Origin: a virus
DNA: 43,165 bases
Direction: 5' to 3' (one strand)
Virus record (IMG/VR): IMGVR_UViG_3300043398_000501
Location: 1 to 43,165 of that record
Positions 3,430 through 37,916 of the stretch are shown here, piece by piece. The first letter of the stretch is position 1, and each line of letters starts with the position of its first letter. The position numbers and the translations under genes are program-made. The notes beneath the pieces are model-generated. The model was not told the origin of the DNA. It saw only the letters and a list, made by a program, of their open reading frames with translations, and did not search any database.

Positions 3430-4661
3430 GGAGGAGCCGTCGTCAGCTGAACGTCGGGCCGGACGGGACGGCGGAGGTGGTGCTGCTCACCAATCCGATA
3501 CCGCGTCACCTCTCGATCGTCGACTGGGGCGCGAACGACCGGCCCGCGTCGTCGTGGAAGTCCGCCTCACCGCCTGGTGACGTCCTCAGGGATCCGCCGG
3601 GACCCCAGGCGATCCAACGGGCCGGTGCCTCGGCGGACGAGCTGGTGGGGTTCATCGACGAGACCCTCGACGCGTGGGAGACCGTCCTCATCGACGTGCT
3701 CGACCGTCCGATCGCCGCGTCGGACAGGGCCGCTCGGGTGATCGCCTGCACCAACCAGGCGGCCGCGCGCGTGGCGGCCCTCGCGGTGGCGGTCGGACAC
3801 GCCAAGATGGCGGAGGTCGCGTCCCAACGTCGCGTCGACCTCCAACCTCACATGCGCCTCGAGGCGAATACCGAGACGCAGATCGATCGGAATGCCTTCG
3901 TCAGGTCGCTCGGCCAGGCCAAGGTGCACCTCAGGGACTCCGTGGTGTCCGTGCTCGCCGCTGGAGGCGAGGGATCATCGACGGAGACCATCCTCGGCAT
4001 CTTCTCAGAGGTCGGCTGTCTGTTCGCTCAGTGGGCGTCTGAGATCCGCGACGGCGTCGTCGGGGTCGCCGCCAAGTCGTCGTCAACACCTCAGGAGGCT
4101 CCAGTGCTCACCATCGTCATGCTCGCTGCCCTGGCGAAGGAGGATCCCGTCGGGTTCCTCGAGGTCGTCGACCAGGCCCGGAAGGATGCGGCCGCCAAGT
4201 TCCCCGAAGCCGCGAAGAAGTTCGCCTGGGGAGACACCGGCGTCGAGCAGTTCGACCCCCAGGAGTTCATCCGTCAGCTCCGCGACTTTCAGGGCGGAGA
4301 GGCCATCCTCGGCATGATCGCGAGCGCGGTCTCGAGCGTCGACGTGGACGCCGCGGCTTCGATCTCTGGTACGCCGAAGGTCAACTCCGCCATGAAGTCG
4401 GCGGCGCGCGCGGCCTTCGCCAAGACCATCGCCGCCGAGATCAAGGCCAACCCCTCGGGAGACCTCGCGAACGCCATCAAGGAGATGGTCGCCCCGTCCG
4501 TCGCCGAGGCGATGGTCCAGACCATGAAGGCGTTCTACTCCTCGCCGACCCCGCAGGGCGATCCCGCCGGAGCCTTCGGGTTCGCCCCCGAGGAGGACGA
4601 CGGCGACCCGCTGGAGGTCGAGATGCCCGCGCTCAACCGGATGGTCGGCGCCCGCGGCTGA
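3426..4661 (+). CDS. Putative scaffold or head assembly protein with a VDxGAN motif
   Basis: A protein of 411 residues starting at a GTG that overlaps the protease stop (GTGA); longer in-frame versions would lie inside the protease gene. Residues about 25-45 read NPIPRHLSIVDWGANDRPA and match the 'SLVDxGAN' element that normally begins XkdF-type proteases. The rest is alanine-rich, largely helical and acidic near the end (EEDDGDPLEVE), with coiled-coil-like stretches, as expected for a scaffold removed during maturation. Position between protease and major capsid gene supports this. A portal-like role seems unlikely because the usual mixed alpha/beta portal core is not seen. Confidence 0.55.
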   Translation: MRRSRRQLNVGPDGTAEVVLLTNPIPRHLSIVDWGANDRPASSWKSASPPGDVLRDPPGPQAIQRAGASADELVGFIDETLDAWETVLIDVLDRPIAASDRAARVIACTNQAAARVAALAVAVGHAKMAEVASQRRVDLQPHMRLEANTETQIDRNAFVRSLGQAKVHLRDSVVSVLAAGGEGSSTETILGIFSEVGCLFAQWASEIRDGVVGVAAKSSSTPQEAPVLTIVMLAALAKEDPVGFLEVVDQARKDAAAKFPEAAKKFAWGDTGVEQFDPQEFIRQLRDFQGGEAILGMIASAVSSVDVDAAASISGTPKVNSAMKSAARAAFAKTIAAEIKANPSGDLANAIKEMVAPSVAEAMVQTMKAFYSSPTPQGDPAGAFGFAPEEDDGDPLEVEMPALNRMVGARG

Positions 4662-4722
4662 CCCAAGCCGCGTCCAGTCCTTCAACCCTACGACGCAACA
4701 GCCCAACCCTCGGGGATTCCAG

Positions 4723-6171
4723 ATGGATCCGATCGTCGAACAGGCCCTCAAGGCCGTGCAGGGCCTGGTCGCCGGAACCCCGGCGACCGGGCGGTCGAAC
4801 CAGGTGATGGAGGTCCGGGTCGAGCAGAACCGGTCCCCGGCCACCCCGCAGCGCACCGTGAGGTCCGCTGGCCTCGACGGCGGCGTGTCGGTCTCCACCA
4901 GGGGATCGGGCTACCTCGAGGCTGACTCGGAGCCCGCCGGGACGGCTCTCAACCCCGAGGCGCAGCTCGGGATCTTCGCGCGGATCCGGAAGGAGTCCGA
5001 CTGGCTGCGTTTCACCACGTTCGCGCCGGTCACGGAGCAGTCCGGGTACCTCGACACGTGGGATGATCGGAGCTTCCGGATGCATCCGATGCCCACCGAG
5101 GGCGTCCGCAGCGGCATCCCGATCCACAAGCCGGATGTCGACGCCAGCCAGTACCAGACCCGGACCATCTCGGGGGCGTTCGGCATCCGCCTGACCGCCA
5201 TCAAGGCGGCCAAGCGCGCCGGCCAGGACGTGAACCAGCTGGTGCGTCGGGGCATCGCCACCGGCATCGGCAACGTGCTGGCCGACCTCGGGATCAATGG
5301 TTCGACCGCCCTGCCGACCGACACCGACCTGAACATACAGCGCTCGGCTGTCGACGGGTGGCTCACCAAGATCCGGGCCAACTCGGCGAACTACCAGGGT
5401 CGCGACGCCGGGTTCTCGTACCACAACGGCATCTGGGCCGGCATGATCCAGCAGCTCGACAAGTCCTACCGATCGCATCCCGGCCTCGCGTGGGGCATCA
5501 CCGACAGCATCGGGTCGCGCTGGCTGACCGAGCTGACCGCGACCGGAGACTCGCCGAGCAACGCCCACCCGAGCATCGTGAACAGCCTCGGGAGCAACCT
5601 GCTCAATGCGATGGGCGCTCAGGCGAATCCGATGGGCAAGCCCGGCGTCGTCATCCCTCAGCTGATCGACGACGGTCACAGCACCGACGAGGGCTACGAC
5701 GGCATGGCGCCGACGTCCCTGGTGAACAACGGCGACGGGACGCTGACCATCAACATCAACACCCTGGCGACCTCCGGCGTCAACCGCTCCGACAGCGGTG
5801 CGGACGGACAGCGCTACGTGACCGTGGGTCGGCTATCCACCGGCGTCGAGGAGACCCTCGCGGTCGCCTACTCCGCGCCCAACAACACCGTCACGACGGC
5901 CGGCCTGCTCGGCCAGACCGTCGTGTCGACCACCGCGGCCGACTACTACGTCAAGTGGGCCGACGTCCAGCCCATCATGCTCGGCGTGTTCCCGTTCCTG
6001 ACCATGGTGGTCCGGAACGGCATGCGTATCTACACGGTCTTCTACCCCCACGACGAGAAGATCGAGGTGATCGTTCACATCGACCTCGACTTCCTCGTGG
6101 TCGACTACGACGGCGTCTCCTTGACGGATGATCTCATCACGCCCAGGTTCTCCGTCCTTCCGGCGCTCTGA
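4723..6171 (+). CDS. Major capsid protein (HK97-type phage coat)
   Basis: A 482-residue protein in the standard place for the major coat protein. Its first 60-70 residues are charged and low in complexity, like a delta domain or propeptide removed by a prohead protease. A core follows with helix-strand patterns (QLGIFARIRKESDWLRF, then FGIRLTAIKAAKRAGQD) and a long C-terminal beta region ending FFV-type strands (IEVIVHIDLDFLVVDYDGVSL). It begins with ATG preceded by GGGGA at 7 nt, unlike the GTG starts of its neighbours. Of its 28 arginines only 3 use AGG or AGA by my count, which fits selection for high expression. The fold is inferred from context and sequence style. Confidence 0.8.
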   Translation: MDPIVEQALKAVQGLVAGTPATGRSNQVMEVRVEQNRSPATPQRTVRSAGLDGGVSVSTRGSGYLEADSEPAGTALNPEAQLGIFARIRKESDWLRFTTFAPVTEQSGYLDTWDDRSFRMHPMPTEGVRSGIPIHKPDVDASQYQTRTISGAFGIRLTAIKAAKRAGQDVNQLVRRGIATGIGNVLADLGINGSTALPTDTDLNIQRSAVDGWLTKIRANSANYQGRDAGFSYHNGIWAGMIQQLDKSYRSHPGLAWGITDSIGSRWLTELTATGDSPSNAHPSIVNSLGSNLLNAMGAQANPMGKPGVVIPQLIDDGHSTDEGYDGMAPTSLVNNGDGTLTININTLATSGVNRSDSGADGQRYVTVGRLSTGVEETLAVAYSAPNNTVTTAGLLGQTVVSTTAADYYVKWADVQPIMLGVFPFLTMVVRNGMRIYTVFYPHDEKIEVIVHIDLDFLVVDYDGVSLTDDLITPRFSVLPAL

Positions 6172-6226
6172 GGAGACGGCTGAACTGAACGGCGGCAGAG
6201 TTCAGGGATTTTGGAGTGAGGACCCG

Positions 6227-6523
6227 ATGCTCGTCACGTTCACCGTCAGGCACGAGAGGGCTGTGAGCCCGGTCACCCCGGGCCTGATGGTGAGTAGGGG
6301 ATATCGACTGGTATTGGAGCCGGACAGATTCCCGAAGCACAGGCTGTTGGTCAACAGGCTCAGGCGTTCAGGGGCGTGGACGGAGGACGGCGTCAAGCCA
6401 GAGGATCTCAAGCCGGTGCAGACGAAGGCGCCGGAGGAACAGCAGAAGATCGACGAGGTCCTGCCCCATCAGGCCGACATCATCGCGAAGATCCGCAACA
6501 GAGCGAGCAACCCCAACCAGTGA
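6227..6523 (+). CDS. Small hypothetical protein after the capsid gene
   Basis: A 98-residue protein starting at ATG 6227 with GTGAGGA five nt upstream; an open frame reaches back into the capsid gene but this start has the ribosome binding site. The first 60 residues look beta-rich and basic (TFTVRHERAV, YRLVLEPDRFPKHRLLVNRLRR) and the last 40 are helical and charged (EEQQKIDEVLPHQADIIAKIR). No family is recognised. Its position directly after the coat gene suggests a minor head protein or adaptor. Confidence 0.6.
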   Translation: MLVTFTVRHERAVSPVTPGLMVSRGYRLVLEPDRFPKHRLLVNRLRRSGAWTEDGVKPEDLKPVQTKAPEEQQKIDEVLPHQADIIAKIRNRASNPNQ

Positions 6524-6530
6524 GAAGCAG

Positions 6531-7487
6531 ATGTCCCTCGACGTCGTCGCAGCGCTCGCCCTGTGCAACGCAGGCGAGAACTATCAGCCCCCGCCGTTCT
6601 GGGTCGAGGGCGTCTTCGTGGAGCCGCCGGTCCAGACGCGCTCCAGCCAGGCCACCGGAGCCGCAGGAGCCACCGTGCTCCGAGCCGCGTACACGGCGGG
6701 TCGGGTGAAGATGAACGGTCGAGTGGCCGACGTGGCGGGCGCCGAGGCGACCCTCGTGTCGCAGAACGGCTACCTGACCTCCGGCCAAGCGGTGTGGTTC
6801 ACGCTGGTGGCCGTGCAGCATCGTCCGTCCTCGGCGATCAACCTCATCTGGGTGCCCGGCACCGTGGCTGCGCTGGCGAGCGTGGCCAAGCCCACCCACG
6901 CTCAGATCGTCGACGCGCTGGACCTCGACGACCGTCCATCGTACGTGATCTGCGGAAGCCTGCGGTTCTACCGGGTGTCGGACCTGGTGATCGTCCACGC
7001 GGCGTCGGACGTGCAGCGACCCGCGTACGTCGACTCGGCCAACAAGACCGAGATCGTGTACGACGAGAGCGATCAGAGCAACATGGCGGAGGTCGCCGGA
7101 TCCACCATCGAGGTCCAGGTGGGCCTCGTGCAAATGTCCGGCGTGGCCGCCGGATCACTGTACATGGACGGCATCCCGCTTCCCGCCTGGCCCTTCGGCG
7201 GCAAGATCGAGTCGATGCACTACATCCCGGCCGTGAACGGAACCGGGGCCGGTGCCACTCAGGACGTCGTCCTTGGCATCGACGGGACCGCTCTGACGGG
7301 AGGCGTGCTCACCCTGACCCTCGCGAACGCGGTGATCCCGACCCCGGTGGCGGCGACCGCGATCACGGCGGCGAACAAGTTCAAGGCCGGCGCCACTCTC
7401 GACGTCGAGACCGACAACACCGGCACCGACTTCACGGCTGGATCGGGAACCCTGCGCGTCGTTCTGAAGCGGTTCGTCCGGCGCTGA
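6531..7487 (+). CDS. Putative capsid-associated or head fibre-like structural protein
   Basis: A 318-residue protein starting at ATG, 7 nt after the previous stop. It is rich in glycine, alanine, threonine and valine, with repeated beta-strand patterns (VVLGIDGTALTGGVLTLTLANAVIPTP, ATLDVETDNTGTDFTAGSGTLRVVLK), as in decoration or surface proteins of virions. No membrane segment or catalytic motif is seen. Its place between the coat gene and the head-tail joining genes supports a head role. A specific family cannot be named. Confidence 0.55.
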   Translation: MSLDVVAALALCNAGENYQPPPFWVEGVFVEPPVQTRSSQATGAAGATVLRAAYTAGRVKMNGRVADVAGAEATLVSQNGYLTSGQAVWFTLVAVQHRPSSAINLIWVPGTVAALASVAKPTHAQIVDALDLDDRPSYVICGSLRFYRVSDLVIVHAASDVQRPAYVDSANKTEIVYDESDQSNMAEVAGSTIEVQVGLVQMSGVAAGSLYMDGIPLPAWPFGGKIESMHYIPAVNGTGAGATQDVVLGIDGTALTGGVLTLTLANAVIPTPVAATAITAANKFKAGATLDVETDNTGTDFTAGSGTLRVVLKRFVRR

Positions 7488-7507
7488 TCGGCGCCGGTGG
7501 AGGCGTC

Positions 7508-8536
7508 GTGCGTTACGAGACCCAACGCAGGGACCGCATCTTTGCCGCCCTGGAGGTCGAGGCCTCCGGGGTGCCGCAAACCGGCCTCACGCCGACCGCC
7601 ATCATCCGGCGCGTCTCAGACGGGAAGTTCTGGGATGGCGCCGAGTTTGCCGTGGGATCCACCTCCATCGATATGACGGAGGTGGACCAGGTGAATCTTC
7701 CTGGCCTTTATAGGGTGGACCTGAACTCCGAGTTTCTCGACATGGAGCTGGGAGCGGAGGGGTACGAGGTCGCCATGACGGAGTCGGTCAACTCCGTCAG
7801 AGAACTCCTCGTGATCACGCCGATCGATGGAGGATCCGACGATCCGGTGTACCAGGAGGCCATCCCGGTGGCGCTTCAGTCCCAGGACGTCTTGAGGGTC
7901 GACTCCGGATCCACAGCCAGGATCGTCGTAACGGTGACCACCACTCCGCCTGTCAGTGGCAAGGCCGGGGCGTGGTTGCTCGGCGAAATGTTGCTGTGCG
8001 TCGGTGAGGACGATGATGGGGTCATCGACCTCGAGGACGATGGCGTCGAGATGCCGACGATGGTCGAATCAGCGTCTCCTGTCGACGGCGGTGCCACGGC
8101 ATCGGTGACCGGTGATCCCGTCTTCGAGGCTGAGGGCGGTCCTCAGGACGAGGACGTTTACGAGGTTCCGGTGGACGACTCGACGGACTTCGAGATCGGT
8201 GACCTCGTGAGAGGTGTCAGAAAGCCAGATGGTCAGGGGCTCGTTCACCGGGTGGTCGGTAAGGGGTCTGGAATCCTGAGGCTGCACGCTCACGAAGGTC
8301 AGTTCGACATCGTTGATGGCGACACCCTGGAGGTAGTGGAAGGTTCCGGCGTGTACGTCGGATTCGTCGATCTGAGCGTGGATGACTATCTGTCCGTATC
8401 ACAGCGCCGGGCGACCTTCAGGATGTCTGCGATCACGCTGATGAGCGGTGACGGACCGAAGTGGGACCAGGCCGCCGTTCTGTCCTGGGTCAGGACCGTG
8501 GAACTGACCGTCAACCCTGGCTACAGAACGGGGTGA
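7508..8536 (+). CDS. Hypothetical beta-rich structural protein of the head or neck module
   Basis: A 342-residue protein. The frame is open far upstream, but GTG 7508 has GGTGGAGG at good spacing and lies just after the previous stop. The N-terminal 110 residues look like an Ig-like or bacterial-surface beta domain (GLYRVDLNSEFLDMELGAEGYEVAM is a typical strand-turn pattern). The middle is strongly acidic (EDDDGVIDLEDDGVEM). A later segment, DEDVYEVPVDDSTDFEIGDLV, looks like another small barrel. A similar 'V.PGVYRV' N-terminal pattern occurs in the next gene, so the two may share a domain. The function is unknown; a head-tail location is inferred from order. Confidence 0.5.
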   Translation: MRYETQRRDRIFAALEVEASGVPQTGLTPTAIIRRVSDGKFWDGAEFAVGSTSIDMTEVDQVNLPGLYRVDLNSEFLDMELGAEGYEVAMTESVNSVRELLVITPIDGGSDDPVYQEAIPVALQSQDVLRVDSGSTARIVVTVTTTPPVSGKAGAWLLGEMLLCVGEDDDGVIDLEDDGVEMPTMVESASPVDGGATASVTGDPVFEAEGGPQDEDVYEVPVDDSTDFEIGDLVRGVRKPDGQGLVHRVVGKGSGILRLHAHEGQFDIVDGDTLEVVEGSGVYVGFVDLSVDDYLSVSQRRATFRMSAITLMSGDGPKWDQAAVLSWVRTVELTVNPGYRTG

Positions 8537-12306: not shown

Positions 12307-15060
12307 ATGTCACTCGTTCTCATTCCCGACGGACCGGGCACCACGGTGGAGCTGCGCGAGGCCGCCCAGGGTCTTCCTCCGGCGCCTCGCGGAACGTCCG
12401 CCCTGGTCGGTCAGTTCGCGTCTGGTCCGGTGACCCGGGCGGCCATCTCCGCCACCCCGGCGCTGTCCAGGCTGATCTCGGGTGATCCTGACGACAACTT
12501 CGAGGCGTCTCTGGCCCTCGATGACGTGTATTCGTTGGACACGCCGACTGTCCTGATCGCACGCGTGACCGATGGGCTGGAAGTCAAGGCCCGCGCTGAC
12601 CTGTGGGATCGCAATCCCAGCAGGTCGTTCAGTCGTGGAAGTCCGGCCCTCAACACCGACAGGGCCCCATTGGCCCAGGCCTTCGCTCAGAACGGTGGTC
12701 GATGGGGCGGGCGCAAGCGGGTCCTGGTTGGAGACCTGAACGCCATCGCGACGGACCTGACCTCCACCACGGTGGATCTGGCGACGGCCGCCGAGATTCC
12801 GGCCACCATGCTGGAAAACGTTCTGGCTGGCGCTCTGCTCTATCTCGAGGGAGATACCTCGAGTCCGTACGAGATCGTGTCGAACACGACGGCAGGGATC
12901 GCGACGATCAAGGGCGAGTTCTCTCAGGCGGCTCAGGATGCCACCGGATCCGGAGCCATCGACGGACGGTTCAGAATCGTTCTTGACCACGACAAGGAAC
13001 TGAGCGTTGTCGTCGCTCAGGACACCGTGGTCGGCAGCAGGTTCTCGCTGACCGCGATGCGGAAGTTCAAGACGGGGTCGGACTTCGAGGTGGTCAGTCG
13101 GTACGATGGACTGGCCCTGTCCCAGTCGGATGATCGACCCTGGATCAGGACGATCTCCGATGGCGAGGAGAACAAGTACCAGCTCGAGATCGAGACCGCG
13201 TACGCCGGCGAGACCGTCGAGACGTTCCTGCCATGCAACTTCTCCGAGGTTCCCACCGCCGTATCCGGTGCGACTCTCACCTACCAGTGGTATCGATGGA
13301 GTCGAGGCGCGGGATCCACTGGCACCGGCCGGATCATCAGCGTGTCGCCGGTCGACGCTGGATCCGTAGAACCGCACGTCTACGTTCTGACCTTCACCGC
13401 TGCCACCACGTTCGACGTGGCCGTGACGTGGCCCGACGGCACCAGCCAGACGCTCACCTCCGGAACCGTCGCCACTCCGTACAGCCCCGGCCATCCGCAG
13501 CTCGCAGGGTTCAACGTGATCGCCGGCGGCGTGGCGTTCATCGCTGGCGACACCTTGAAGCTCCGGATCAACTCGCTCCCGCATGATCTGTATCGTCGCG
13601 AGGCGTACCTGTACCCGGTGTTGTTGTCCGCCGACGGCAACAGCAACCAGCGGCTCAGGATCGTCAGCAACACGTACAACAGCGTGACCGTCAGGTCGGA
13701 CCTGGACCTGGCTGATTACGATTCCGAAGCCGGGGCGTCTCCTGACTTCGTGTGTACGCAGAACCTCTCGGCCGTCACGTCGACGATCGGACACACGGTG
13801 ATCCTGACTCCGGACGGCATGCCGGCTGTCACCCTGACCTTCAGCACCGCCGTCCTCGGAGCCACGCTCATCGCCGCGGCATTGACCGCTCTCGACACGA
13901 ATTCCATCTTCGTGTTCTCGGCTGGAGGTACCGGGAACAACTTCCTGAGGATCAGGCTCAACGGATCGTACGGGACGAGGACCAGTATTCTCACCGGAGC
14001 CGGAACCGGCCACACCGCGCTCGGTATCACGAACGCGACCACTCACCTCGGCTCCGACGGTGTTCCGTTCCGCATCGAAGCTCGGTGGCCCATGTGGGGC
14101 GGCTACGACGGTGCTGCGCCGGCCACGGCTCGATATGTCATCGGACTGGACCTGGACTCGTCCCTGTTCCAGTGTCACATGAACAGGAACCTCGGTCTGG
14201 TCACCGTCGCCACTCCGGGCGTGAACGCTACCGCCGTCAAGGACGCCGCCGGGGCTCTGGTGGCCAAGAACGGATGGCAGTACGTCGCTGAATTCGCGTC
14301 GTCCATCGAGTCGCTCGCCTCTCCGGGAGAAGGGGCGGTCGACGACATGGTGACCAATGAGTCGGAGTCGGACTTCGTGCTGCACCTTTTCCCGTCGAGG
14401 GCCAAGTTCCTCTCCGTGGACAAGACTCGACTCGTGACCCGGTCGCTGTCGGGCATGTGGCTCGGTCTCAGGTCGCGAATGGCCAACGTCGGCATCGATG
14501 GAGAGAAGGGCTACCACATCGCGACCGCGAACAACAATCCCCAGGGGAAGCTCAGCCCCCGAGTCAAGGGGCTGTCCGACGAGCTGGGCAGGTGGACCCC
14601 GCCGATCAAGCTGCTCAACGACAACGGCATCGTTCCGGTCATCTGGTCGGGACCGGACGTGTATCTGTTCGGCAACAGGATGTACTCCGCCGGCCGAACT
14701 CCGGAGGGCAGGCGCTACACCATCACCGAGCGCTCCGTCCACTATCACATCGCGCGCGACATGTTCGTGACCACCAGGCCGTTCATCTTCAAGAGCATCT
14801 CGGCGCGGCGGTTGGGCGACGTTCAGGTGGCGCTGCGGACCAAGATGAAGTCGTACTACAACGACGGCTGGTTCAGCGATCTCGGCGGTACGGCACCGGG
14901 GTTCGAGCAGCAGGTGCTCGTCGAAGTTCCTCTGGCGCTGAACCCTCCCGAGGCGTTGCTCGAGGGTCAGGTCACGGCATCCGTGAAGTATCGTCCAAGG
15001 CCGGCGCTCGAGGATCTCAAGATCATCCTGTCGCCGACTGAGCTCACCGCCAACGGCTGA
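12307..15060 (+). CDS. Contractile tail sheath protein
   Basis: A 917-residue protein with ATG and GAGAGGAGAG upstream. The N-terminus (TSALVGQFASGPVTRA, residues about 36-51, then ALSRLISGDPDD) matches the start of sheath proteins. The C-terminal 250 residues carry the conserved sheath core: IKLLNDNGIVPVIWSG, then VYLFGNRM and RRYTITERSVHYHIARDM, then TTRPFIFKSISARRLGD. This end forms the inner ring and the linking arms between subunits. Between roughly residues 100 and 640 there are additional beta-rich domains that would project outwards. The protein is longer than T4 gp18 (659 residues). It is followed by the tube gene 11 bases later, the standard sheath-tube order, and the pair drives contraction. 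Confidence 0.9.
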   Translation: MSLVLIPDGPGTTVELREAAQGLPPAPRGTSALVGQFASGPVTRAAISATPALSRLISGDPDDNFEASLALDDVYSLDTPTVLIARVTDGLEVKARADLWDRNPSRSFSRGSPALNTDRAPLAQAFAQNGGRWGGRKRVLVGDLNAIATDLTSTTVDLATAAEIPATMLENVLAGALLYLEGDTSSPYEIVSNTTAGIATIKGEFSQAAQDATGSGAIDGRFRIVLDHDKELSVVVAQDTVVGSRFSLTAMRKFKTGSDFEVVSRYDGLALSQSDDRPWIRTISDGEENKYQLEIETAYAGETVETFLPCNFSEVPTAVSGATLTYQWYRWSRGAGSTGTGRIISVSPVDAGSVEPHVYVLTFTAATTFDVAVTWPDGTSQTLTSGTVATPYSPGHPQLAGFNVIAGGVAFIAGDTLKLRINSLPHDLYRREAYLYPVLLSADGNSNQRLRIVSNTYNSVTVRSDLDLADYDSEAGASPDFVCTQNLSAVTSTIGHTVILTPDGMPAVTLTFSTAVLGATLIAAALTALDTNSIFVFSAGGTGNNFLRIRLNGSYGTRTSILTGAGTGHTALGITNATTHLGSDGVPFRIEARWPMWGGYDGAAPATARYVIGLDLDSSLFQCHMNRNLGLVTVATPGVNATAVKDAAGALVAKNGWQYVAEFASSIESLASPGEGAVDDMVTNESESDFVLHLFPSRAKFLSVDKTRLVTRSLSGMWLGLRSRMANVGIDGEKGYHIATANNNPQGKLSPRVKGLSDELGRWTPPIKLLNDNGIVPVIWSGPDVYLFGNRMYSAGRTPEGRRYTITERSVHYHIARDMFVTTRPFIFKSISARRLGDVQVALRTKMKSYYNDGWFSDLGGTAPGFEQQVLVEVPLALNPPEALLEGQVTASVKYRPRPALEDLKIILSPTELTANG

Positions 15061-15071
15061 GGAGTCAACAC

Positions 15072-15512
15072 ATGTCTGCACGCGTAATTCCGGATGGCGC
15101 GGCGATCTCAAACCACTTTGCGGTGAGCTTTTCTCCTCATGTCGTCGAGGCCAACGCGACGTCGGTGGATGGGCTCGGCGACGAGGTGGAGGTGGTCGAC
15201 GGTCCGGACGGCCGAGGATATTCCACCGGCAAGGCCATGCGGAAGGACCTGACCGTCGCGATCCCGATCCATGACCCGGCCAACGCTCTCTTCCACGCAT
15301 GGAAGGAGAAGTGCGAGAATGGTGCGGCCGGTCATCAAGCCACCGGCACCGTGACGATCATGACCTCCGGGGACGTTCCTGTGGAGATCTTCGAGCTGTC
15401 GAACTGCATCTGCAAGCAGTTCGAGGCAACGGGGATGAAGCTCGACGGAGCCGAGGTCGCCGTGAACACCTTCACCATCTCGTACTCGAGGGCCAAGCGC
15501 ATCGGCCCGTGA
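15072..15512 (+). CDS. Tail tube protein (T4 gp19-like)
   Basis: A 146-residue protein just after the sheath, with ATG and AGGAG upstream. Length and pattern fit the gp19-like tube fold: an N-terminal strand (FAVSFSPHVVEA), a central DLTVAIPIHDPANALFHAW segment, GTVTIMTSGDVPVEIFELSNC strands and a last VNTFTISYSRAKRI strand. It would form the rigid inner tube made of stacked hexamers inside the sheath. Two cysteines lie close together (NCICKQ), which is unusual for a small tube protein but of unknown meaning. Confidence 0.75.
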   Translation: MSARVIPDGAAISNHFAVSFSPHVVEANATSVDGLGDEVEVVDGPDGRGYSTGKAMRKDLTVAIPIHDPANALFHAWKEKCENGAAGHQATGTVTIMTSGDVPVEIFELSNCICKQFEATGMKLDGAEVAVNTFTISYSRAKRIGP

Positions 15513-15548
15513 TGATGCGCAGTTGAATCCGTGTCTCAGGAGGGTATC

Positions 15549-16343
15549 GTGGAACATCTCGCCAGGGCGAAATTCGAAGACATGTTCAGGGAGGGCAGGC
15601 TTCCTTCCGGCAACGAATTCGAACTCATGCCTGACACCGTCGGCATCGGGTTGAAGGTCTCCGAGGTCGACGAGAAGGTGCCCTGGAAGAGGAAGGCTCG
15701 ACAAGCGTGCATCACCACCAAATCGGTGGCTGGCCACGAGTTTCTCGGCATGAAGGTCAAGGACCAGGTCGACTTCATGGGATCGATGCTCGATTCCGAT
15801 GTCCAATTCCTGTCCATGGCCTGGACCGCTCAGAACAGTGGCACGTCGGTGCGTCTGAAGGAGGGCGGGGTCAACTGTCCGGTGTGCGGTCATCCCCACA
15901 CGGAGATCCCGTTCGGTGGCATCGAGGTGCTGCACAGGGCTGCACCGATCGGTGGGCCAGACGCAGTGTTCCCGTTCGAGCCAGCGGACAGGTCGATCCT
16001 TCCGCCGACCATCCAGTCGGCGGAGCTCTACATCGTCGATCCGACGTGGATGGCGGCGAGGATCCACGTTCCAGACAATTCCTGGACCAATCACGAGGTC
16101 GTCAGGACCAACCGCGTCGTCTCGTGCCTCAGGGTTCGCGCCCGGAAGCCGGACGGATCCATCGCTGACGGTCCTCCACGGATGCTCTCTCGACAAGGCG
16201 AAGCCATGCAGATGCGCATGAAGCTCATCGAGGAGATCAGCGAGGCGATGGACAGGGTTGTGCCGCATCTGAACAGGAGCTTCGACTTCCCGTGTCCGCA
16301 GTGCGGTACGGAGGCGTCGATCCCTTTCGACCAGGGTCTCTGA
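15549..16343 (+). CDS. Tail assembly chaperone, short form (gpG-like), with two zinc-binding cysteine pairs
   Basis: A protein of 264 residues between the tube and the tape measure genes, where tailed phages encode the tape measure chaperone. The start is fixed by AGGAGGG at 15538-15544, four bases before GTG 15549; an upstream GTG at 15531 has none. Two cysteine pairs, CPVC (with GHPH nearby, about residues 115-121) and CPQC (about 253-256), look like a zinc ribbon split by a long insert. Similar cysteine pairs occur in T4 gp26-related baseplate/chaperone families. The gene ends at 16343, while a -1 frame opens across its end; the slippery heptamer and stem-loop needed for frameshifting are present, giving a longer form of about 334 residues. 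Confidence 0.7.
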   Translation: MEHLARAKFEDMFREGRLPSGNEFELMPDTVGIGLKVSEVDEKVPWKRKARQACITTKSVAGHEFLGMKVKDQVDFMGSMLDSDVQFLSMAWTAQNSGTSVRLKEGGVNCPVCGHPHTEIPFGGIEVLHRAAPIGGPDAVFPFEPADRSILPPTIQSAELYIVDPTWMAARIHVPDNSWTNHEVVRTNRVVSCLRVRARKPDGSIADGPPRMLSRQGEAMQMRMKLIEEISEAMDRVVPHLNRSFDFPCPQCGTEASIPFDQGL

Positions 16344-16360
16344 GGCCGATCACCGAGACC
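16322..16360 (+). promoter_or_regulatory. Programmed -1 frameshift site: slippery heptamer plus stem-loop
   Basis: CCCTTTC at 16322-16328 is read as C CCT TTC in the chaperone frame, the X XXY YYZ form that allows both tRNAs to re-pair after slipping back one base. After a 6-base spacer (16329-16334), GGTCTC (16335-16340) pairs perfectly with GAGACC (16355-16360), giving a 6-bp stem with a 14-base loop that contains the zero-frame stop. The -1 frame then stays open to 16552. Confidence 0.75.
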
Positions 16361-16552
16361 GATTTCTTTGGGATAGAGCTTCAGGACTACGCCGATCTGG
16401 CGTACACGTTCATGCGAGGCATCCCAGGGAGAGGAGGATCGTCGGGGGGATTCCAGATGATGGACCCCGAGACCTTGAAAAATCAGCGCTGGACATACGT
16501 CAAATACTGGTTGAAGAGGCTGTCCAAGGACTGGGACAAGATCGTCGGTTGA
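16328..16552 (+). CDS. Minus-one frame extension of the tail assembly chaperone (gpT-like part)
   Basis: This is the C-terminal part of the long chaperone form, reached by frameshifting, not a separate gene. It adds 74 residues after the slip (beginning RPGSLRPITETDFFG), including DYADLAYTFMRGI and a basic aromatic end (WTYVKYWLKRLSKDWDKIVG). No good ribosome binding site supports independent initiation at the in-frame ATG 16292. In phage lambda the corresponding gpG/gpGT pair keeps the tape measure soluble and the T part recruits tube protein; the same role is inferred here from position and size. The tape measure starts 14 bases downstream. Confidence 0.7.
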   Translation, partial: RPGSLRPITETDFFGIELQDYADLAYTFMRGIPGRGGSSGGFQMMDPETLKNQRWTYVKYWLKRLSKDWDKIVG

Positions 16553-16566
16553 TGCTGGAGTGACGA

Positions 16567-19008
16567 GTGGGACTGTTCACCATAGCCGCCCAGCTGATAT
16601 TCAACACCCAGGGTGCGACTCTGGCGAACCAGAGATTCGTTCGGCTGTTGAAGGCGACCGACAAAGAGATGACGATGGTTCAGCAGCAAGCGAAGAAGAC
16701 CGGCATGAGCGTGAAGGACTTCCTTCGCGCCATGGAGCTCAAGCTCAAGCCGATTCCGGTCAGTCCCTGGCAGCGAAACGTCAGGATCGCCTCTCAGACC
16801 CTCAGCTCGTTCACGAGGTTCGTGCATGAGGCGCGGATCGCCATCAACCAGCTCAACGGAACGCCTGTCCGTGGCGGCCACCACGCGCATCTTCAAAAGA
16901 CCCATGGGATTCTGAAGGGGATCGTTCATACGACCAAGGAGGCTCACGGTGGTCTCAGAGCGTTCCTTCAGGAGGCGTCGGCGCACGCGCTGGCCGGGGC
17001 TATGGGCGGGCACGGTGAGGGTGGCGGCGGGGGTCACGGCGACGCTGGAATCATCGCTGAGTGGATCAAGTCAGCAGCCGTGACGGAGCAATCCAAGCTC
17101 ACTTTCGACGCCATGTTGGGTGATCAGAGCAAGAGCAAGGATCTCATGAAGCGGATCACGCAATACTCGGCCGCGACCCCGTTCGCTCGAGCCGACGTCA
17201 TTGGTGCGTCCAAAAGGCTCCTCAACATCACCGGAACCGACGTCAACGAAAACGAGCGCTTGTTCAAGATGGCCGGCAATATATCGGCGCTGCGTCCTGG
17301 ATCCAAAGTCGAAGATGTCGGTATGGGCATCGTCCAGGCCACCGTGGGTGAATTCGAGATCCTCAAGAGCTCCTTCGGCCTCATGCTCAACGCCAAGATG
17401 TTCGAGGACGCCGGCACGGCTGGCAGCAAGTCCTACACCAAGGCCGTGTTGAGCGAGATCGAGAGACAGTTCAAGAGCAAGACAGGCGGTCGCGACCTCG
17501 TTGGGGCGCTGGGCGAATCGCTGCTCGGCAAGGTGTCCACGCTCCAAGACAGTCTTGAGATCATCGGCGACATGATCGGAGAGAAGCTCATCGAGATCTT
17601 CGACATGAAGGAGGTGGTCCAGGGAGCCATCGACTTCTTCGACCAGTTCGGCAAGGCCTTCACGATATTCATGGGTCACTCGGAGGATGTCTCTCTCGAG
17701 GATATGCTCAAGTTGGATCCGAACATCGTGAACGTTGTGAAGAAGATCGTCGACGGTCTGCACAAGATCGAGGAATGGCGGGAATATTTCATGCCCGCCG
17801 TCAAGCCCATGGTCATGACGCTGATCGAGGTCGGCGTGGGCTGGCACAAGGCGATCATGGGGTTCGGCGTCGCGATGGGTGTCATGGCGGTCGGAGGCAG
17901 CGCCATCGGTCCGATCATGGCGTTGGTCCTCGGCGGAGCGACGGCTGTGGGTGGGATCATAGCGTCTCTGTCTGGTATCATCGTGCCCGTGCTCATCGTG
18001 GTGCTCGGACTATTTCAGATGGGACTGACGGCCACGATCTTCGCCATAACGGCCTTGACCGGCGCGTTGGTGATCGGCTACGCCTCGTTCAAGGCGTATC
18101 AGCGCGATAGCGAGAGCGCGACTCAAGCCATGTGGCGATTTGCGGTGTCGATCAAGGACGGTGTTCTCAAGGCCGTCGAGATCTTCATGGCGTTCTGGCG
18201 CCCATTCTACGGTGTCATAGGTCCGGCGATCTCAGCGGCCGTTGACCACATCTCGACCGCCTTTAAGGGGATGGTCGCTCCGTTCGGGGAACTCCTTGGG
18301 TTGTTTGGGATCATGTTCGGCCAGGCCGGTCAAACCAACTTGGACAAGTGGGCTACCCTCGGTCAGGATGTCGCGAACGTCTTGTGGTACGGCATATGGT
18401 TCTCGTCCTCTGCCGTGGTCGCCGTGTTCAACACCATCGGATGGCTGATCTCGCACATACTTCAGCCCCACTTCAAACATCTTGTGAGCGACATCTACAG
18501 GGTGGGCAAGGCGTTCTTCGACTTCGTGTCGGGCACCGGGACCCTGGGCAACGTCCTGAAGACCACCCTGGGCGGAGTGGCCGATACCCTCCTACTGCCG
18601 TTCAGGGTGTTCTTCTCGACGATCACGGATGTGGCTGGTGCCGGATTGATGTCCTTGGCCGACGCTGTTCGTCCGTACAATCAATGGGCCGCGGATCAGA
18701 TCGCCGGCGCTGCAGCGGGGTTCGAAACGGCTGGAGATGTGATCAGAGAGGGGTTCCTCAAGACCGATCAGCTGTTCAAAAATGGCGTCGAGGTCAAGAT
18801 GCCGGACATGGAGATCAAGGCCTCCGCTCCAGTGGAGGTCAAGATCGACGGTCAGAAGATCGCCGACACCACCGTTCAGACCGAGATGCGCGCCAGAAAC
18901 TCGGGCAGAGGAGGAGACCCGATGAGCCCGGAGGAGCTTGGATTCGTTCTCGAGGGCAATTCCAGGATACGACCCGTGAGTCTCAACGAGGTGGCGGGGG
19001 GTAGTTGA
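16567..19008 (+). CDS. Tail tape measure protein
   Basis: An 813-residue protein, GTG start with GGAG six nt upstream. The N-terminal part is helical (LANQRFVRLLKATDKEMTMV), followed by a glycine- and histidine-rich linker (about residues 140-157). A segment at about 175-260 (FDAMLGDQSKSKDLMKRI, then ATPFARADVIGASKRL) matches the typical tape measure 'tail length' domain. A long hydrophobic stretch at about 434-508 (MAVGGSAIGPIMALVLGG onward) could form membrane helices used in DNA entry. The length predicts a tail of roughly 120 nm at 1.5 angstroms per residue. It lies directly after the chaperone and before the hub genes. Confidence 0.85.
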   Translation: MGLFTIAAQLIFNTQGATLANQRFVRLLKATDKEMTMVQQQAKKTGMSVKDFLRAMELKLKPIPVSPWQRNVRIASQTLSSFTRFVHEARIAINQLNGTPVRGGHHAHLQKTHGILKGIVHTTKEAHGGLRAFLQEASAHALAGAMGGHGEGGGGGHGDAGIIAEWIKSAAVTEQSKLTFDAMLGDQSKSKDLMKRITQYSAATPFARADVIGASKRLLNITGTDVNENERLFKMAGNISALRPGSKVEDVGMGIVQATVGEFEILKSSFGLMLNAKMFEDAGTAGSKSYTKAVLSEIERQFKSKTGGRDLVGALGESLLGKVSTLQDSLEIIGDMIGEKLIEIFDMKEVVQGAIDFFDQFGKAFTIFMGHSEDVSLEDMLKLDPNIVNVVKKIVDGLHKIEEWREYFMPAVKPMVMTLIEVGVGWHKAIMGFGVAMGVMAVGGSAIGPIMALVLGGATAVGGIIASLSGIIVPVLIVVLGLFQMGLTATIFAITALTGALVIGYASFKAYQRDSESATQAMWRFAVSIKDGVLKAVEIFMAFWRPFYGVIGPAISAAVDHISTAFKGMVAPFGELLGLFGIMFGQAGQTNLDKWATLGQDVANVLWYGIWFSSSAVVAVFNTIGWLISHILQPHFKHLVSDIYRVGKAFFDFVSGTGTLGNVLKTTLGGVADTLLLPFRVFFSTITDVAGAGLMSLADAVRPYNQWAADQIAGAAAGFETAGDVIREGFLKTDQLFKNGVEVKMPDMEIKASAPVEVKIDGQKIADTTVQTEMRARNSGRGGDPMSPEELGFVLEGNSRIRPVSLNEVAGGS

Positions 19009-34595: not shown

Positions 34596-37500
34596 TCAGG
34601 TGTCGTTGTTGGCCACGGTATCACCGCCGCTGTTGGTGAGGGACCCGTCGATCCTATTCCCCACGAATACACCGTTGATGGATGACGCCTCGAGGGTGAC
34701 ATCGTCATTGAACTTGTTGCCGACGTACACCCCGCTGAGAACACTGAACGAGTGGGCTGCGCTGGTGTCAGTCCAGTAGTTGCCGACAGCCACGACGGAT
34801 TGAGACGCAACTCCATCGTTCATCGTACCGCCGACCACATTGCCGACGATCACGCTGTCCTGACCGTCAGGAGTGTCGAATCCGATGTTGTTCAGGATCA
34901 TATTGCCCGTGAGGACCACCCCTCCGCCGGTGCCTCCGTCGATGCCGAAGATCGCGTTGTTGATGTGGTTTCCGGTCACCACCATGTGGGCCGCGAGTTC
35001 GAACGTGAAGTTGCCAGACGTCAACACGTTGCCCACGAATGCGGATCCGCTGATGTCGTCGCCAGTGACATCGTCTCCAGACTCGAGGATGTTCAGAGCG
35101 AAGACGATCTCGCTGCTGTCCACGCCTCCCAGACCTTCATCGAATCTGACTCCGCAATCCCTCATGACGTTGCCGATCACGACGGCCGTGGAGCCCTGGA
35201 ACAGGAGTCCCCTACACGTCAACCCGGAGTCCCCCAGGATCACGTTCAACGCGAAGACGGCCGGAGAGTCGGAGCTCGCCGATGACGCGCCACTCGGCAG
35301 GCAATTGATGCCGATCGGAGTTCCGGACGCCGCATCGACCATGTCGATGACGTTGCCGAAGGCCATGAACCCTCGCTCGTCGGTTCCACCCTGAGCGTCG
35401 AGGACAATCCCGCTGGGGTCAGCCCCGTCCAGCGCGATCACGTTGCCGTACACCGACACGGTGCACTCATCCTCCATGCTCACCGCGATACCGGCGGCCT
35501 CGGCGACCACCACGTTGGAGTGGACCAGGGATCTGTGGAGGCTCTTCACCGTGATGCCGGTCTCAACGTTCACCACGGCGTTGTCGTGGATGAGGTTGTT
35601 GCCGCTGGTCTCCCCGAGGCCGACGATGTCATCGACGTTCAGGTCGATCCCGACCGATCCAGCCGGAGCGGTCCTGCCGTCAATCAGATTGTCATGGATG
35701 AACCAACACGTTCTGAACGCGGATGTCGTGTCGGCACCGGTCAACTTCATGAGCGGAGCGGTCGTGCCGTCATTCCGTCTGAAGAAGTTGTCTCGTATAT
35801 TGATGCGGACGACATCCGTCATATCCGAGTCGTTGCCGAGGTGAACGACCGAGAAGTTGCCGGTGACGTCCAGGTCATTGTCGTGGATCCTGGAGTCAGA
35901 GAGCTTTCGGGATCTGATGCCGTTGCCCTGAAGAGCCGTTCCCTTGTTGCCCCTGATCGTCCATTTGGTCTGGGTCCCACCGGCCGCTCCGATGTCCGTC
36001 AGGAATCCGGCTTGGCTGAGCACGGTTGCGGCCGAGTCGTTTTCGACCACACAGTCCCTCACCAACAGGAACGAGCTGGCCTCAGCCGCCGCGGTCACCC
36101 ACAGGACCGACTCGGCCGAGTACAGCCTACATCTGTCGAACGTGAGCCTCTTGACCTCATTGGCCTCAGAGTACACCACGTGGGGCAGATACACGTTGCT
36201 TCCGAGCACGTCATTGCCGTCCACGGTACACTCGACGAACTCGAGTCCGTCCACGTCTCCGAAGTTGGCGACCACGGCCGTGTCAGCCGCGGTTCCAGTG
36301 CCGTTGTAGTCGAAGTAGACCCCCTCGAATCGCCAATTCCTGAGGGTGGCGCCGGACGCGACCCTGAACAACGGATCGTCGAAGCTCCACGCGACCTTCG
36401 AGCCGTCGATGGCCGCTCCGGCGGATGAGGCGATCATCCTGCCGCCGCGTGCTCTGAACGTCACGTTGGGGACGCCCACAAGGTCAGCATCGGAGATCGA
36501 CGCGCTGACCGTGACGTTGCCCAACAGCTCGATGACGTACCCTCTGCGATTGGTCGCCGTGGTATTGAGTGCCGCTGCGAACGCCAACGCACCCTCAAGG
36601 GTATTGAACATCGCTCGATGCGCCGACGTTCCGCTGACAGACAGAACGAGCTGCTCGTTGAACTCGTTGACCATCTTCATGATGGTCGTCACGAGCGTGA
36701 TCTGGGAAGCTCCGTCGGTCTCCACCCTGTACGCTGGAACTGCCGAAGCCCCGGCCGCCGTGCTGAACGACGTCGAGAAGTCCCACCCTGGAGCCGTGTT
36801 GTCCCAGTACACGTACGTCGTGCTTGACGGAGCGAACGGACCGACGGTGTCCAGAGACGTCACGGTGATAGCACCATCGACGTACGCCTCGCCCACTCCG
36901 ATGTCCAGGTCGTCGGCGTTGATGGTGAGGGTCGGTCTGTCGGTCCATCCCTTGGCGATCACGGTCTCTGGAACGCCTGAGAGATCGTTGAGGGTCTGCG
37001 AGACGGACTCGATGACGTGCTGTCCGGTCATGTCGATGATCTCGGCGACCGTGTCGGATTCCACCGTGCCGAGGAAGATGTAACTCCTGTTCGAGTCGAA
37101 GTTCGTAGTAGTTATGACTGGCCCGAGCACCACGATCTTGTACCTGGCAGCCACGAGAGACGGCGACGCCTGACCGAGATATCCGTCGCCAATCCCGGTG
37201 ATGTCCACCACCCACCCGCCGATCGCCAGTCTCGTGAGTTTGGCGCCGAATGCGATGGCCACATCAGGATCATCATCGGAGATGGTCACGCCCGCAACGT
37301 CTGTGTCGAGGTACACGATGCAGTCGTACGACCAGTCGTCATCCTCATCGTTGGACGTGAGCCACTCTTGAACCCCCAATCCCGTCAGACCGGTGGTCAC
37401 CCTCAGGCGCAGACCGGACCCGCCGTCGCTGACGGCCGATGGGGCGACCGTCACGCCGGGCGCGTCCACCCATCTGGAGTATCCCCTCGAGCCGTTGTCA

Positions 37501-37916
37501 CCGATCCCGACATCGATCGGAAACCTGGTGTTGTGCAGGTATACCCTGTACGTCGTGCCGTCGTCATTCTCGTACGGCAGATCCTCGAACCACGCCGGAT
37601 CGTGGAGTACGATGGTTCTCGATCCCTCCACAGAGGTCACGAGGGCCGAGTTGCTGCCCATGCCGATGAACACCTCCCCGGAGTCGGACAGACACGGGAG
37701 GTTGCCCTCGACCGTCAACTTCCGCTCGTTGATCGCGGCTGCGTCATCGACGATCTCCAGGCCGGTGCCAGACCCGTCCACCACGCATTCGCCGATGATC
37801 CTACCACCGAGATCTCTGACCGTTTGACGTACGGCTTCGAAGATGTTGTCCTCGAGGGTCCTTGCGCCCAGAATGGCTCGGTTGAAGAATCCGGCGTAGA
37901 TGTTCCTGTCGGCCAC
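34596..37916 (-). CDS. Large beta-helix tail spike or fibre protein
   Basis: A 1,106-residue protein, GTG start with GAGGTGA upstream. The first 130 residues (ADRNIYAGFFNRAILGARTLEDNIFEAVRQ) look like a baseplate attachment region followed by small beta domains. From about residue 560 to the end there are many short turns such as IRGNKGTAL, IHDNDLDVTGN, IHDNLIDG, IHDNAVV, VHSNVVV, VYGNVI, AFGNVI, VIGNVM, FVGNVL, VTGNHI, LTGNMI and IVGNVV. This is the rung pattern of a right-handed parallel beta helix, as in pectate-lyase-like tail spikes that bind or cut surface polysaccharide. No catalytic residues can be named with confidence. Confidence 0.8.
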   Translation of the reverse strand: MADRNIYAGFFNRAILGARTLEDNIFEAVRQTVRDLGGRIIGECVVDGSGTGLEIVDDAAAINERKLTVEGNLPCLSDSGEVFIGMGSNSALVTSVEGSRTIVLHDPAWFEDLPYENDDGTTYRVYLHNTRFPIDVGIGDNGSRGYSRWVDAPGVTVAPSAVSDGGSGLRLRVTTGLTGLGVQEWLTSNDEDDDWSYDCIVYLDTDVAGVTISDDDPDVAIAFGAKLTRLAIGGWVVDITGIGDGYLGQASPSLVAARYKIVVLGPVITTTNFDSNRSYIFLGTVESDTVAEIIDMTGQHVIESVSQTLNDLSGVPETVIAKGWTDRPTLTINADDLDIGVGEAYVDGAITVTSLDTVGPFAPSSTTYVYWDNTAPGWDFSTSFSTAAGASAVPAYRVETDGASQITLVTTIMKMVNEFNEQLVLSVSGTSAHRAMFNTLEGALAFAAALNTTATNRRGYVIELLGNVTVSASISDADLVGVPNVTFRARGGRMIASSAGAAIDGSKVAWSFDDPLFRVASGATLRNWRFEGVYFDYNGTGTAADTAVVANFGDVDGLEFVECTVDGNDVLGSNVYLPHVVYSEANEVKRLTFDRCRLYSAESVLWVTAAAEASSFLLVRDCVVENDSAATVLSQAGFLTDIGAAGGTQTKWTIRGNKGTALQGNGIRSRKLSDSRIHDNDLDVTGNFSVVHLGNDSDMTDVVRINIRDNFFRRNDGTTAPLMKLTGADTTSAFRTCWFIHDNLIDGRTAPAGSVGIDLNVDDIVGLGETSGNNLIHDNAVVNVETGITVKSLHRSLVHSNVVVAEAAGIAVSMEDECTVSVYGNVIALDGADPSGIVLDAQGGTDERGFMAFGNVIDMVDAASGTPIGINCLPSGASSASSDSPAVFALNVILGDSGLTCRGLLFQGSTAVVIGNVMRDCGVRFDEGLGGVDSSEIVFALNILESGDDVTGDDISGSAFVGNVLTSGNFTFELAAHMVVTGNHINNAIFGIDGGTGGGVVLTGNMILNNIGFDTPDGQDSVIVGNVVGGTMNDGVASQSVVAVGNYWTDTSAAHSFSVLSGVYVGNKFNDDVTLEASSINGVFVGNRIDGSLTNSGGDTVANNDT

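Follow-up and report, generated by a model that had tools for sequence, protein, structure and literature searches.

Does the gene flanked by the tail tube and tape measure genes of this virus yield one protein or two? The stretch analysed here, called the window, corresponds to an entire IMG/VR virus record (43,165 bases) and derives from a contractile-tailed phage (myovirus). The phage is divergent, and public phage records contain next to nothing recognisably related to its little-known lineage. The gene, ORF1, is followed by an open frame shifted by -1 (ORF2), and we consider it highly likely, from the comparative sequence evidence below, that a programmed -1 frameshift in a T4-type tail assembly chaperone gene joins the two to give a short and a long form. 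The tail genes concerned are as follows.

12307 to 15060, plus strand: tail sheath, 917 aa (phrog_23, E 2.5e-14; 60% identical in the relative L002)
15072 to 15512, plus strand: tail tube protein, gp19-like, PF06841 (E 3.6e-10)
15549 to 16343, plus strand: ORF1, putative short form of a tail/hub assembly chaperone, 264 aa (predicted fold, CxxC knuckles)
16328 to 16552, plus strand: ORF2, -1 frame extension, 74 aa, first codon CGA at 16328-16330 (52-56% identical in relatives)
16567 to 19008, plus strand: tape measure protein (phrog_23574, E 3.4e-11)

Elsewhere in the window, the sheath is unusually long (917 aa, 12307-15060) and the known sheath family matches only about residues 510-906, so the protein appears to carry a large N-terminal or inserted region. 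Antisense to it runs a 996-aa open frame (12310-15300, minus strand) that probably results from G+C-rich codon usage. A 1106-aa ORF (34596-37916, minus strand) sits beside terminase and baseplate genes and has no match in PHROGs.

ORF1 begins at a GTG (15549) with AGGAGGG four bases upstream; an alternative GTG at 15531 is without a Shine-Dalgarno-type site of this kind. The protein ends in IPFDQGL at a TGA stop (16341-16343), and the -1 frame stays open past that stop, over 16169-16552. In-frame starts for ORF2 are limited to two GTGs inside ORF1 (16292 and 16301) and an ATG at 16412, 69 nt past the stop. No Shine-Dalgarno sequence precedes any of them, none overlaps the ORF1 stop, and ORF2 has no plausible start of its own. 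Around the junction we located the following elements, from which a fused protein of 334 aa is predicted.

16310 to 16314, plus strand: Shine-Dalgarno-like GGAGG, putative upstream stimulator, 7 nt upstream of the heptamer (equivalents in L002 and L008)
16322 to 16328, plus strand: slippery heptamer C CCT TTC (register kept as CCCTTTC or CCCTTTT in 4/4 lineages)
16335 to 16340, plus strand: 5' arm of a downstream stem, GGTCTC (register matched in L004, GGGGCTC, and L008, AGGGTCT)
16355 to 16360, plus strand: 3' arm of the stem, GAGACC (partners GAGCCCC in L004 and AGACCCT in L008)

The initial annotation had described a complete frameshift signal at this position, and on recheck its coordinates for the ORF1 end, the -1 frame, the heptamer and the stem were all right. 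Its statement that CCCTTTC lies in frame for simultaneous slippage also holds, as the zero-frame codons are ATC CCT TTC. This is the X XXY YYZ tandem-slip phase, which allows the two tRNAs to re-pair with CCC TTT, Pro CCT being in the P site and Phe TTC in the A site. Within the 4669 codons scanned in the window, CCCTTTY occurs in frame only once. The residues I/V-P-F are conserved at the slip site across lineages, and the proline is CCT at all four slip sites vs 1/34 Pro-Phe dipeptides elsewhere in the scanned genes of the four lineages (p = 6.8e-5). The joint probability of the slip-site codons, calculated from codon usage, is 2.5e-4. The heptamer is thus beyond chance expectation. An IPF at the first CxxC motif of ORF1 is encoded ATC CCG TTC, unlike that at the slip site.

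Relatives were hard to find. Single-sequence searches of viral contigs with ORF1, the tube protein and the terminase gave none, a search of genome contigs gave none, and tblastn of the sheath, ORF1, ORF2 and the fused protein against phages returned nothing useful. L002 was found with the window's sheath as query; L004 and L006, L007 and L008 were found through an alignment of the -1-frame extensions of the window and L002. The last three come from different IMG/VR datasets and are identical at all bases compared (3882-7700); they are the same virus assembled repeatedly and were counted once, which leaves three independent relatives. Their ORF1s are 39-43% identical to that of the window and their ORF2 extensions 52-56% identical, and their gene order is the same.

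Both frames and a C CCT TTY heptamer in unchanged register are kept in all four lineages, with 12, 12, 12 and 15 nt from heptamer to ORF1 stop in the window, L002, L004 and L008, respectively. The ORF1 endings read CCCTTTC GACCAGGGTCTCTGA in the window, CCCTTTT TCTCAGGGCCTCTGA in L002, CCCTTTC GAGCAGGGGCTCTAG in L004 and CCCTTTC ACCCAGGGTCTGGGCTGA in L008. The initial annotation had proposed that relatives with both frames and no heptamer would speak against a shift; no such relative was found. A TAG blocks the -1 frame of L008 up to a point 6 nt ahead of the heptamer, which confines entry into this frame to about 30 nt. ORF1 and ORF2 are each single copy in the four records with no separate fused gene found, and a T4-like second, long-form gene was likewise absent from these metagenomic records, which are possibly incomplete. 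Frames, heptamer, conservation, copy number, synteny and the lack of an ORF2 start are all read directly from the nucleotide sequences.

Could ORF2 instead be a small separate gene, perhaps translationally coupled, that starts at GTG 16292, GTG 16301 or ATG 16412? Such starts do exist in frame, and the ATG, at a YxFM motif, is conserved in 4/4 lineages. The same candidates lack the Shine-Dalgarno sequence and the overlap with the ORF1 stop, as described above, and L008, whose -1 frame opens too late, has no equivalent of the GTGs. Moreover, the amino acid sequence is conserved over the roughly 17 codons that finish with the conserved ATG, with 24, 23 and 45 substitutions at codon positions 1, 2 and 3; ORF2 is thus under protein-level constraint in a stretch upstream of that ATG as well. 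A separate gene would also leave the conservation of the heptamer unexplained, and we regard it as unlikely.

Two further readings fare worse. Transcriptional slippage, in which a stuttering RNA polymerase and not the ribosome would produce the fused product, could draw on the T5 run in L002 (CCCTTTTT), which might permit some polymerase slippage. Only C3T3 is present in the window, L004 and L008, and on so short a run the polymerase does not slip efficiently; conservation of the X XXY YYZ phase also speaks against it. We hold the polymerase to be a very improbable source. For metagenomic assemblies such as these, one might also entertain an error of assembly or sequencing, or a broken gene, behind the overlap, with a single continuous ORF in reality. 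An identical overlap and phase in four divergent lineages, with ORF1 stops intact 12-15 nt past the heptamer, makes this almost inconceivable. Ribosomal slippage at the heptamer is the reading we retain, and the virus very probably makes two versions of the chaperone through ribosomes slipping back one base.

The perfect 6-bp stem reported in the initial annotation is present, with a 6-nt spacer (16329-16334) and a 14-nt loop. Judged by itself it is no better than chance: an equally long stem arises in dinucleotide shuffles of the window with P = 0.13, a 40-nt fold containing it has z = 0.00, and a 79-nt window fold favours a different structure. Support for the stem is comparative. It recurs in a common register in the window, L004 and L008 and is absent from that register in L002, and two of its pairs change on both sides by inspection (T-A to G-C; C-G to G-U). 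In 3000 trials that held the 5' sides constant and shuffled only the 3' sides, the mean was 11.3 bp and the maximum 19, vs 21 bp for the four lineages together (0/3000 shuffles reached the total, in a register picked after sequence inspection). A hairpin in L002 (CACGTcgatACGTG) was considered as a stimulator and discounted as too distant from the slip site. Rfam gave no match in the frameshift region.

Upstream, GGAGG-type sequences lie 7-10 nt before the heptamer in three of the four lineages, with predicted anti-Shine-Dalgarno duplexes of -9.5 (window), -11.6 (L002) and -11.4 kcal/mol (L008); at the right spacing, L004 has none. With in-frame positions in other genes of these phages as the background, the combined Fisher p is 1.4e-4, a value that is somewhat optimistic, as is that of the stem, because windows and registers were picked after the sequences had been inspected. 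A strong 7-bp stem is present in L004, the relative with no Shine-Dalgarno-like element, and a strong element of the latter kind in L002, the relative with no stem. We hypothesise from these four sequences only that the two are complementary across relatives. The Escherichia coli dnaX -1 signal consists of an upstream Shine-Dalgarno-like element, a slippery heptamer and a downstream hairpin. The present site resembles it in this three-part layout and differs in gene and heptamer and in that both stimulators are not found in every relative. Of the signal first called complete, then, the heptamer stands in 4/4 lineages, the stem is found in three and is ordinary alone, and the Shine-Dalgarno-like element had gone unmentioned. 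At about 5939-5955 of L008, AAGGAGG is followed after 5 nt by a zero-frame ATG directly before the slip site, and translation might conceivably also begin there, inside the gene and a short way upstream of the shift.

What kind of chaperone does ORF1 encode? No curated family claims it in Pfam or PHROGs scans; the matches, those in Pfam under cut-off, were generic zinc-ribbon or unknown-function entries and were set aside. PF12322 was not listed in Pfam for the ORF1 of any of the four lineages at E up to 1, and its gathering score was not reached. Comparison of ORF1 with PDB sequences and folds gave no match. An AlphaFold2 model (pLDDT 78.9, pTM 0.78) compared with viral models by Foldseek gave a best E of 2e-8 and 26 models below E 1e-3. 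Several of these carry the name T4-like baseplate hub assembly protein or chaperone, and a baseplate hub subunit of phage SP-15 of the same length is among them. ORF1 contains two CxxC knuckles (CPVC and CPQC), and an hhalign comparison of its profile with ten PF12322-type proteins (89%, E 2e-6) spans both. Fold and motifs suggest a T4-type identity: ORF1 resembles the hub-assembly chaperones gp26/gp51 (PF12322) in predicted fold and in its two knuckles, and it is too divergent for the Pfam PF12322 threshold. Pfam and PHROGs scans gave no lambda gpG-type family for ORF1, and the fold search led to T4-type proteins. The comparison with lambda gpG/gpGT in the initial annotation is therefore kept for the -1 frameshift, which is much the best explanation, and revised for the protein, which is T4-type by predicted fold and CxxC motifs and not recognisably gpG-type.

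A 2004 study by Xu, Hendrix and Duda reportedly dealt with lambda gpG/gpGT and the tail assembly chaperones of other long-tailed phages. Frameshifted tail assembly chaperones are by now textbook material for long-tailed phages, T4 excepted (PMC5009743). The lambda heptamer is GGGAAAG, whereas the window lineage has CCCTTTY with a candidate hairpin and Shine-Dalgarno-like element; in addition, ORF1 has no database match to the gpG-type family and a T4-type predicted fold. As represented in PMC10885494 and PMC12846349, Vladimirov et al. (2022, Virology) identified T4-like tail assembly chaperones and treated the short and long genes of T4 as such, and some T4-like phages have one short and one long gene in place of frameshifting (PMC10885494). 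Both T4 gp26 and gp51 belong to PF12322; gp26 ends at the domain end and gp51 continues for about 48 aa. ORF1 shares with them its predicted fold, the two knuckles and the pairing of forms, in that ORF1 resembles the short T4-type form and the ORF1-ORF2 fusion the long one. T4 has two separate genes, whereas in the window lineage one gene and a frameshift would give both forms. No similarity is detectable between the gp51 tail and ORF2; a visual resemblance that had suggested homology was ruled out by profile comparison (hhalign 0.3%). Homology of ORF2 to the extensions of other phages was likewise rejected on profile comparison, and an ORF2 model gave no significant match among viral models.

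Another comparable case is the conserved -1 shift at GTTTTT reported in 2025 with phage Adele for chaperones of Vandenendeviridae/Andersonviridae, in a paper that also mentions poly-T signals in T4-like chaperone genes (PMC12846349). The likeness extends to a downstream ORF before the tape measure that is usually mis-annotated as a separate gene; the slip motif differs from CCCTTTY. Any claim that T4-type chaperones with a frameshift are unprecedented was dropped in view of this paper and of the 2022 T4 chaperone paper, as far as the latter is represented in its citing articles. Frameshifting in related groups is already published, and the present case adds a new lineage.

A survey of PF12322-type genes outside the classical T4 group extends the comparison. 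Eight were examined, from SP-15, LIS04, GXN1, two giant-phage records, Mel-JY01, Atu_ph07 and PA5oct; that of SP-15 was confirmed by Pfam (1.5e-28), and the others were found through similarity to it. A shifted-frame extension past the stop is present in 8/8, in three as -1 and in five as +1/-2; in SP-15, 2/55 genes have a shifted extension unexplained by the next gene. T TTT TTC lies just before the stop in two of the three -1 extensions, those of the baseplate hub genes of Agrobacterium phage Atu_ph07 (L022, 2265-2510) and Pseudomonas phage PA5oct (L023, 3145-3381), which have an AW-LS--ER motif in common. The third, in a 595-kb uncultured phage (L019, LR756511, 2121-2393), has T TTT TTC upstream, farther from the ORF1 stop than in those two phages. 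The overlapping +1/-2 extensions (about 60-90 aa) belong to Bacillus phage SP-15 (L016, KT624200, 34990-35929), L017, L018, L020 and L021, where they are unannotated or split off as a small gene; CC CGA TT just before the stop is common to SP-15, LIS04 and GXN1. The SP-15 pair SP15_045/046 (KT624200) matches the window in its order of sheath, tube, PF12322 chaperone, shifted ORF and tape measure, with a +1/-2 overlap near a T6 run where the window lineage has -1 at CCCTTTY. The expectation that automated annotation would split such genes is borne out in SP-15, Mel-JY01 and Atu_ph07, where the shifted frame is a separate small gene, and in LIS04 it is left blank. As a set, the extensions weakly match the T4 gp51 tail (74%, E 3e-5).

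We tentatively raise the possibility, to which we give somewhat less than even chances, that a one-gene, frameshifted T4-type chaperone is widespread outside the classical T4 group and that T4 26/51 is a lineage-specific duplication that replaced the frameshift. If true, the modes of shifting would comprise -1 at C CCT TTY here and -1 at T TTT TTC or +1/-2 elsewhere, giant phages included, and the pattern would bear on how T4 came to two genes rather than a frameshift.

For the window, ORF1 would be the short, TAC-N-like form of a T4-type tail/baseplate-hub assembly chaperone. At C CCT TTC, a minority of ribosomes would slip by -1 as the Pro and Phe tRNAs re-pair in tandem, probably aided by the upstream Shine-Dalgarno-like element and the downstream hairpin. 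The slipped ribosomes would bypass the stop at 16341 and append a 74-residue C-terminal domain, giving the 334-aa long form (TAC-NC). A fixed ratio of short to long form would load tube subunits onto the tape measure, as for lambda gpG/gpGT. What we infer here is that slippage takes place and how efficient it is, what part the hairpin and the Shine-Dalgarno-like element play in it, and that the protein acts as a chaperone. Read in this way, a known expression device would extend to a new virus lineage in which the chaperone looks T4-like and not lambda-like. For annotation, the rule would be that a small ORF before the tape measure gene is joined to the chaperone and not recorded as a separate gene. 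With the heptamer constant, the four sequences would also form a natural series in which to compare the stimulators that go with it, hairpin or Shine-Dalgarno-like element.
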